Shown: in pieces, positions 23,774 to 49,423 of the stretch | Position numbering within the stretch: the stretch's first letter is position 1 | Layout of the letters: each line of letters begins with the position of its first letter | Assembly (NCBI GenBank): GCA_025059875.1 | Contig: JANXCT010000001.1 | Coordinates: forward strand, 310,001 to 374,000 | Length of the DNA stretch: 64,000 bases | Direction: 5' to 3' | DNA from: Candidatus Kapaibacterium sp. | GTDB taxonomy: Bacteria > Bacteroidota > Ignavibacteria > Kapaibacteriales > HRBIN21 | Notes under the pieces: model-generated | Seen by the model: the letters and a program-made list of their open reading frames with translations, nothing else | Databases searched by the model: none | What the model was told of the DNA's origin: nothing | Made by a program: the position numbers and the translations under genes

Positions 23774-23781
23774 ACTCTGTG

Positions 23782-23855
23782 CGCACCCGCAGGGACTCGA
23801 ACCCCGAACCTTCTGGTCCGTAGCCAGACGCTCTATCCAATTGAGCTACGGGTGC
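23782..23855 (-). tRNA. tRNA-Arg (anticodon ACG)
   Basis: 74 nt folding as a complete cloverleaf on the reverse strand. The acceptor stem GCACCCG pairs with CGGGTGC. The D arm is AGCTCAATTGGATAGAGC. The anticodon stem TCTGG/CCAGA closes the loop CTACGGA, whose anticodon is ACG (read as ICG for CGU, CGC and CGA). The T arm holds GGTTCGAGTCC-type bases (GGGTTCGAGTCCC). The discriminator base is G and the 3' CCA is not encoded. It starts only 5 bp after the rpsT stop, an unusually tight tRNA/ribosomal-protein arrangement. Confidence 0.95.
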
Positions 23856-42406: not shown

Positions 42407-42943
42407 ATGAACCGGTGGCGACTCTTCGGTTCACTGCTAGCGTTTTACGCGGGGATCACGCTGTGGGTAGGGAGCTTGGGGGTGTTCGGGATTGCGGTAG
42501 CGGGGGTTCCCTTTGAGGTCCTCTCACGCGATACGGCTGGGGTAGTGAATCGGCTCATCTTGGCACGCCTACATGTACTGGAAATTGCGGGAATCCTGCT
42601 CGTCGGAACAGGCCTGTGGCTCCTCAATCTACGGCTCCGTGGGTGGCAATGGCGGTTAGGGTTGGTGGCCTTCGTGGTGATGGTTACGCTCTTCGGCATC
42701 TACGCTGGCCTGCTGGAGCCGCTGATGAACAGCATCGCACGCGCCGTTAGCTTCGACAATCCGACGCCTGAGACGCTGGCTGCGATTGCTCGGTTTGAGG
42801 GATACCACCGCCTCTACTCTCTCCTGGCGGGGCTGACGGTAACGTGTGGTGTTGCGCTCTTTGGGTGGCAGACCTGGTTGGTGGTGCGTCTGTTGATGCC
42901 CTCTAGGGACGCCGCTGCTGGGGATGGGGCTCAGCGCTCTTGA
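42407..42943 (+). CDS. DUF4149-like membrane protein
   Basis: 178 residues with four hydrophobic segments (about 10-32, 58-76, 82-105, 135-160). N-terminal [41 protein letters not shown] and the late [19 protein letters not shown] match the arrangement of DUF4149 small integral membrane proteins. No catalytic motif is seen and the function is unknown. The gene starts 28 bp after the VWA gene and its 3' end overlaps convergent recA by 13 bp. Confidence 0.72.
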
Positions 42944-43995
42944 GGTGCTAGGGGCTTTCGAGAGGCATTGCGGGTGGCTTCTCCGTCACCACGTTGTGGT
43001 AGCTTGAGAGTAGTTCGGACAGCTTCCTCGAGGCGGGCGTAGAGGGCTGGGTCTTCTTGGAGGAGCTTCCGCAAACCTTCGCGTCCCTGGACGCGTTCCT
43101 CGCCGAAGGAGAACCACGAGCCACTACGGGCAACGATACCGTACTCTACACCGAGGTCTATGAGCTCGTTGAGCCGGGAGATACCTTCGGTGTAGAGGAT
43201 GTCGAACTCGCCTTCTTTGAAGGGAGGTGCCACCTTGTTCTTGACCACCTTGAAGCGGATGCGGCTGCCGACAATCTCCGTGCCCTCCTTGATGACGTCT
43301 TTGCGGCGTAGCTCGATGCGGACCGAGGCGTAGTACTTGAGAGCGTTCCCACCAGTAGTCGTCTCTGGGTTCCCGTAGAGCACGCCGATCTTGCTGCGGA
43401 GCTGGTTTGTGAAGATCACGACGGCATTCGAGCGGCCAATAGCAGCGCTGAGCTTCCGCATTGCCTGTGACATCAAGCGTGCCTGCAGCCCAACTTGGGC
43501 ATCCCCCATCTCCCCTTCAATCTCAACCCGTGGCGTGAGGGCTGCGACAGAGTCAACTACGACGACGTCCACAGCACCACTCCGCACGAGTGTCTCCACG
43601 ATCTCCAGCGCTTGCTCTCCGAACTCTGGCTGGGAGAGCAGTAGGTTGTTGAGGTCTATCCCTAAGCGCTGAGCGTACTGGATGTCTAGCGCATGCTCGG
43701 CATCCACAAAGGCAGCGATGCCGCCCTGCCGTTGGGCTTCTGCGATGATGTGGAGGCATACGGTCGTTTTGCCCGAGGATTCGGGGCCGAAGATTTCCAC
43801 GATGCGTCCGCGGGGGACACCACCAACTCCAATTGCAGCGTCCAAGGTCAGGCTGCCCGTAGAGATGGCTTCCACGGGAACGACCTGGGAGTCGCTTAGG
43901 CGCATGATGGCCCCCTTACCGAACTGCTTCTCGATTTGGTCGATCGCTAACTGCAGGGCCTTCTGCTTCGCTTCTGCCGGTCGGGCCTCGGGCAT
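42931..43995 (-). CDS. recA: Recombinase RecA
   Basis: DNA strand-exchange and SOS coprotease. I set the start at the ATG at 43995 ([20 protein letters not shown]), preceded by GGA, giving 354 residues; a TTG at 44040 is in frame upstream. Conserved motifs: MRLSDS, Walker [32 protein letters not shown] and the L2 loop [20 protein letters not shown]. The C-terminal tail ([20 protein letters not shown]) is polar and basic, whereas many RecA proteins end acidic. Its promoter is not clear; the next divergent gene begins about 155 bp away. Confidence 0.96.
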
Positions 43996-44134
43996 TAGGG
44001 GTCCGTTCTGCTGTTCAACAGCCGTCTTCTCGCACCTCAAGGCGTGGTACTACGGCGAGGATACGCGTGCTCAGAAGACGTTCGCAGAAGGGGTTTCATG
44101 CATACAGCGGTTGTTCCCGACGGGGCCTTTTGGC

Positions 44135-44150: not shown

Positions 44151-44815
44151 ATGCCAACCGTTGACATGGATGCCAGCGCTGTAAGCTACTGGCCCGAGCG
44201 ATACCGTCGGGGGGAAGATGGGATGGGACTTGGGTAGAGAGACACCGGTACTCCGGGAACTCCTTCGGCAGCGGTCTTTCCCCCTCTTACCGCGGGTGGA
44301 CGGAAAGCAGACTCGTGTCGTCCCAGGATGCGGTTTCGGACACGACATTAACATTATCTTGCTGGCACGCGAGGGGTACGACGCGGTCGGAGCAGACTTC
44401 GCACCTGGACCACTATGGTGGCTGGCGGACCAACTCCAGCAGCAGGGACTGCAAGCAGAGCTCATCTATGAGGACATTTTCCAGCTCCCTGCGGTTTGGG
44501 CCAGGCCTGCTGGCGCAGTGTGGGAGTATACGTGCTACTGTGCGATTGACCCCCAACGGCGCGGGGAGTACTTTGCTGCCATGGCTGGCTTGCTGCATCC
44601 TGGGGGGCGGTTGGTGTGGCTCTTCTTCCCGCTGGACTCCATAGTAGGCGGGGATGGTCTTGCCCTTCGTTGTGAATACGACAGAAGCGGTGGAATTGAT
44701 GCAGCAGCAGGGCTTTCGCCCTGTGGAGGTGGTATATCCCAAGGCTTCGCATCCAGTAAGGGCTGGTGGGGAAGTGTTGCTCATGTTCCAAAGGACTACA
44801 GGGAGCGTGCGATGA
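44151..44815 (+). pseudogene. SAM-dependent methyltransferase (thiopurine-methyltransferase-like), two frameshifts
   Basis: Three reading frames together spell one coherent protein of about 220 residues. Frame 1 gives MPTVDMDASAVSYWPERYRR and then GEDG up to 44219. After one extra G (GGG at 44220-44222) frame 2 continues WDLGRETPVLRELL with the SAM loop VVPGCGFGHDINIILLAREG. After a second extra G (GGGG at 44650-44653) frame 3 gives PFVVNTTEAVELMQQQGFRP and ends at TGA 44815. Each insertion is in a G run. The order and motifs fit the TPMT/UbiE-like small-molecule methyltransferases. Either both shifts are assembly errors, or the gene is broken. Confidence 0.75.
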
Positions 44816-45267
44816 AGGCAGTTTTGGAACTCGTCGATACTGGCATGCGTTTGGAGGGACGCAATGAGCGTGGACAGCGCACGTACTTTGATGCTGACCC
44901 GAGCGTTGGGGGGAGCGACACAGCACCGCGCCCAATGGAGCTCTTCCTCCAAGCGATGATGGCTTGTACGGCCATGGATGTGCTCAGCATCATCCGGAAG
45001 AAGCGGCGGACGGTGACGACCTTCCGAATCAGTGCGGAGGCAGAGCGAGCGCCGGAGCATCCCAAAGTCTTTCGGCGTATCCATCTCCGTTACGAGCTCG
45101 TCAGCCCCGATGCGACGGAGCAAGACTTGCAGCGGGCCGTGGAGCTGTCGCAGAGTACCTACTGCAGTGCCTCCATCATGGTGCGCCGTTCGGGGTGCGA
45201 GATAACGTGGGAGGTTCTCCTGCGTCGCCCAGAGGAAGTAGAGGTGATGCCACAGTCGGCAGAGTAG
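44812..45267 (+). CDS. OsmC/Ohr-family peroxiredoxin-like protein
   Basis: 151 residues from the ATG at 44812, overlapping the methyltransferase stop as ATGA. A longer open frame from 44218 is an artefact of the methyltransferase frameshift, not a fusion. Two cysteines are seen: Cys in FLQAMMACTAMDVLS and Cys near residue 122 in SQSTYCSASIM, the positions of the OsmC/Ohr pair that reduce organic hydroperoxides. FDADPSVGGSDTAPRPMELF is also typical. A role in hydroperoxide removal is likely; many members of the subgroup are uncharacterised. Confidence 0.9.
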   Translation: MKAVLELVDTGMRLEGRNERGQRTYFDADPSVGGSDTAPRPMELFLQAMMACTAMDVLSIIRKKRRTVTTFRISAEAERAPEHPKVFRRIHLRYELVSPDATEQDLQRAVELSQSTYCSASIMVRRSGCEITWEVLLRRPEEVEVMPQSAE

Positions 45268-48904: not shown

Positions 48905-48935
48905 TGCTGCGTAGCTCACAGCAGAGGGTGTAGCG

Positions 48936-49423
48936 GTGGCTGCTCCTTACGTGCTCGTAGTGGACGACAACCGGATTATGGTCAAGCTCCTGCGGCGCTA
49001 CCTTGAGAAGTACGGCTACGAGGTTGGCGAGGCATACAACGGGATGGAGTGTCTGAGGCCGTTGCGCAACGCCTGCCCGATGCAATCGTACTGGATGTGA
49101 TGATGCCGCAGATGGACGGCTATACAACGCTTCAGCGGCTACGGCAGGACCCTGCAACGGCGCTGGTTCCAGTGGTCATTGTGACGGCCCTCACCGATGC
49201 TCCAAACCAGCTTCGGGCGATAGAGGCAGGAGCCCACGACTTTCTCGGCAAGCCCGTTGACGAGCGTCTGCTGGTCGCGAAGGTACGTCTCCTGACGACT
49301 CTTAGCCAGCTGCGGCGGGCATGTCAGCTCCTGTACCATCATGCCCACCAGCATGGGGTCCCCATACCACCAGAGATCCGCGAGCTATGGAGCTCCCTTG
49401 GCTTTACCGAACAACCCTCCTGA
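48936..49423 (+). CDS. Single-domain response regulator, interrupted by a one-base deletion
   Basis: The N-terminal part (GTG at 48936) reads VAAPYVLVVDDNRIMVKLLR and runs to about 49055. The C-terminal part is in another frame from about 49053: EAVAQRLPDAIVLDVMMPQM, DFLGKPVDERLL. Adding one base at about 49053-49055 joins them with the acidic pair DD and the phospho-Asp spaced 43 residues apart, as in CheY. Without it only the C-terminal 124 codons are open. The Lys in GKPVD and the output-free tail suggest a CheY/Spo0F-like regulator without DNA-binding domain. The shift may be a sequencing error or true inactivation. Confidence 0.75.

Follow-up and report, generated by a model that had tools for sequence, protein, structure and literature searches.

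A methyltransferase gene broken by two +1 shifts upstream of osmC is probably a fairly young pseudogene

The window analysed here is a stretch of 64,000 nucleotides in contig C1 of a 1.97 Mb genome (33 contigs, 98.1% complete) of a Candidatus Kapabacteria genus, whose members we take to be of hot-spring origin. Gene order across the window (1-64000) is largely common to three congeners, G001, G003 and G004, and translated matches cover 62,606 of its 64,000 bases, overlapping frames counted. Between recA, on the minus strand at 42931-44040, and an osmC-like gene lies a methyltransferase gene (MT, 44166-44815) of the PF05724 thiopurine/thiol type, which is spelled across three frames (Table 1). 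Alignment to congeners, checked against G001 and G004, placed one additional base at each of the two junctions, and the path through the three frames contains no internal stop. The alignment thus agrees with a sequence-only reading of this DNA, which had described an MT in three frames with two +1 shifts, an open frame of 349 residues and a stop overlapping the next start. The OsmC start ATG (44812-44814) overlaps the MT stop TGA (44813-44815), and a purine-rich, ribosome-site-like AGGGAG is located 6 nt upstream of the osmC ATG. The start proposed in that reading, ATG 44151 with 220 codons, was not borne out. The orthologues begin at the equivalent of ATG 44166, suggesting that this is the more likely start and that the product has ~215 residues. 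The C-terminal piece in frame 2 is more than a chance open frame, as judged by its identity to the MT C-terminus over 50 residues.

Table 1. Features of the MT-osmC locus (window coordinates)
Feature	Position	Strand	Basis
MT N-terminal piece, frame 0	44166..44210	+	orthologues begin at the matching ATG
Zone of first +1 shift	44210..44223	+	profile scan of frame-switch points; +1 relative to G001 and G004
MT SAM-binding core, frame 1 (= OsmC frame)	44224..44646	+	PF05724 E 2.9e-10; 61% identity to G001 orthologue
Zone of second +1 shift	about 44646..44662	+	profile scan; shift +1 relative to congeners
MT C-terminal piece, frame 2, ends in TGA	44663..44815	+	40% identity to G001 C-terminus over 50 residues; residual SHP..GxE motif
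osmC-like gene, intact	44812..45267	+	PF02566 E 3.9e-18; 72-80% identity to congeners
Spurious 349-aa MT-OsmC ORF	44218..45267	+	open frame; absent from relatives examined

The two shifts were placed by a frame-switch scan, in which 270 pairs of switch points were scored against a profile of six orthologues. The first shift can lie anywhere in its zone, with scores of 257.4-258.8 bits. Two G runs fall in this zone, GGG at 44220-44222 and the greater part of a run of six Gs (44209-44214), and the conserved E of GETGWDLG favours its later part. The best score for the second shift (258.8) was obtained after 44658 or 44661, just downstream of the GGGG run, compared to 256.3 for a shift inside the run. 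It had been claimed that both shifts lie in G runs. This is possible at both sites but is not established, because the second shift fits slightly better outside its run, and on the profile scores its placement within the run appears slightly disfavoured.

In all five congeners (G001-G005) and in G041, a genome of the same taxonomic order, the MT is one intact frame of 205-222 codons and is followed by a separate osmC. These orthologues carry the motifs GxTGWDLG (GDTPWDLG in G041), VPGCGYGHD (IPGCGYGHD in G041), PPF/PPY and SHPARxGRE. A strong uninterrupted match to both the MT and the OsmC halves was found in none of 60 other genomes, and there was no uninterrupted MT-OsmC fusion among the matches listed from 395 genomes. 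The fusion-query matches in G005 and G041 each contain a stop, and G020 gave a weak 28% match to the fusion ORF (E 2e-4), covering query residues 128-276 only. A comparison with the orthologous locus had been proposed as a check, and in the five congeners and G041 it revealed neither split frames nor a fused protein. Since MT and osmC are separate intact genes in these six genomes, the fusion is spurious and an effect of the broken frame, as the earlier reading had held. The MT shift leaves the middle frame in phase with osmC and thereby gives rise to the false fusion. Annotation of this locus calls for caution, as an automatic gene caller would report an MT-OsmC fusion that is absent from every relative examined.

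The middle-frame piece is the only MT piece that matches PF05724 (TPMT/thiol and halide methyltransferase family), scoring 40.6 bits where the cut-off is 26; two of the orthologues scored 92.5 and 84 bits (E 3.8e-26 and 1.5e-23). An uninterrupted PF05724 frame is present in the five congeners and in G041 but not in the window copy. The closest solved structures to the orthologues are 9h04 (methyltransferase domain-containing protein), thiol methyltransferase 1 (9h0g, 9h0d) and a halide methyl transferase (8ajp). The G001 orthologue scored 49.6 bits against TIGR03840, the NCBIfam thiopurine S-methyltransferase equivalog, far below its cut-off of 223.2, suggesting that the protein is a relative within the family rather than a classical TPMT. 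The MT is a putative small-molecule thiol/thiopurine-type SAM enzyme of PF05724. The window copy differs from the orthologues in its three frames and in changes at family-conserved residues, including the loss of an arginine (GRE to GGE) that is present even in the solved relative 9h04. The downstream gene is a typical and intact PF02566 OsmC-like gene, with nothing notable beyond the apparent fusion to the MT.

Constraint on the MT was examined by counting lone changes, that is, changes in one copy at columns identical in the other four congeners. A gene entered the comparison if every one of the five genomes had it and 25 or more columns were usable; 33 genes passed and the rest were dropped. 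With the junction zones masked, the MT had 14 lone changes in 88 columns here compared to 3/77, 7/81, 6/80 and 5/79 in the other copies. The lone-change rate of this genome over the other 32 genes was 5.84%, against which the MT count has a binomial P of 0.0006 as a single test and of about 0.02 after multiplication by 33. Unmasked, the MT had 17/93 lone changes and ranked first of the 33 genes. Second codon positions of the MT were changed alone at 14 of 116 sites here compared to 16 of 526 for the remaining five copies pooled (Fisher P 0.0002). At columns that do not vary among the other five congeners, the ratio of lone non-synonymous to synonymous changes was 14:14 here and 20:38 pooled, a modest difference in raw counts. 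The window copy also has in-frame indels, with one residue lost before and two gained after the SAM-binding motif VPGCGxGHD, which are found in none of the six other rows. The residual MT reading is still 47-56% identical to the congeners and has no internal stop, suggesting that decay, if real, is recent and not advanced. On either side of the MT, recA (8/278 lone changes) and OsmC (4 lone non-synonymous changes) were normal. The stretch is thus not generally bad, and local bad sequence was rejected as the sole cause. This genome has no second close copy of the MT; the sole other match was 26% identical over part of the protein.

One-base breaks were also found in two other genes of this genome. 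A response-regulator receiver gene in the window (48924-49420) is in two frames, with one base fewer than G003 and G004 at about 49055-49079, and its match was also split against G001 and G005. It is otherwise well conserved, with 3/42 lone changes; the G002 row, with 56/95, is probably the wrong gene. Outside the window, at about 268,740 of contig C1, a gene whose name, sensor-kinase-like, is a guess has its C-terminal ~95 residues in another frame relative to G003 and G004, and the break adjoins GGGGG. Over the 112,689 coding bases tested, one-base shifts thus number four, namely two in the MT and one in each of these genes. By our own arithmetic, the chance of two shifts lying as close together as the MT pair is about 0.05, which is weak. 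One-base offsets were also observed in the controls G004, G003, G001 and G002, and in this rough comparison the break rate here was not clearly above those of G003 and G004. Split matches whose offset differed from one base were attributed to gene borders and to ORFs extended from stop to stop. Two further apparent splits were rejected. The one at 23.7 kb is a tRNA-Arg (acg) gene at window 23781-23855, which mimics a split in translated searches. The other, at merged position 152.6 kb (L123), corresponds to the tmRNA gene, and neither is a frameshift.

Frameshifted bacterial pseudogenes have a broken frame, more change at conserved sites, and intact orthologues and neighbours. The MT shares these features and differs in that its shift happens to bring the middle frame into the frame of osmC. 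It has both disabling changes relative to intact orthologues and signs of relaxed constraint. Collectively, these results suggest that the MT is a true and fairly young pseudogene, to which we assign a probability of roughly 0.65, and the case looks like ordinary gene decay. We infer a loss of function, with the two shifts carried by the organism itself and not introduced during assembly. The MT, which is upstream of osmC in the genus, may have lost constraint in this lineage and gathered changes at conserved residues together with small indels, two of which would be the +1 frame shifts. The loss would be confined to the upstream gene of the two, since OsmC retains its own start, a ribosome-binding-site-like sequence and normal constraint. 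Biologically, a single lineage would have lost an accessory enzyme.

The sequence-only reading had leaned towards an artefact, in which the MT is intact in the organism and an assembly or sequencing error put two single-base insertions into the consensus. We consider this the main alternative, though less likely than real decay. Each MT shift involves a single base within or close to a G-rich stretch, the response regulator is broken by one base yet well conserved, as an error would leave it, and the kinase-like gene breaks beside its G run. However, errors would explain neither the excess of substitutions at conserved MT residues nor the in-frame indels at the SAM motif, the genes flanking the MT are normal, and the rate of one-base breaks does not clearly set this genome apart from G003 and G004 in the rough test. 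The changes at conserved residues point instead to real decay. Use of the frames as they stand, either by +1 frameshifting recoding or as a 349-residue fusion made as a new protein, is very improbable. The fused frame is open throughout, but the orthologues need no frameshift, no relative examined has the fusion, and OsmC has a start and ribosome-site-like sequence of its own. The linker frame (44663-44811) matched no methyltransferase or other family, whereas a match to the methyltransferase persists in the other frame of this segment. We give even less credence to a translated fusion created by the frameshifts in this species, in which the SAM-binding core, an out-of-frame linker and the OsmC domain would be kept as a new protein.

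The overlap of the MT stop with the osmC start as ATGA had been called the normal style of this genome and taken to argue that the gene was intact recently. Neither point held. ATGA junctions are a minority here, at 11 of 125 close same-strand pairs, with TGATG/TAATG junctions at a further 8 of the 125. The MT-osmC junction itself varies among the five congeners, three having gaps of 3-4 nt, one TGATG and one a longer overlap, and the ATGA therefore says little about the age of the MT break.
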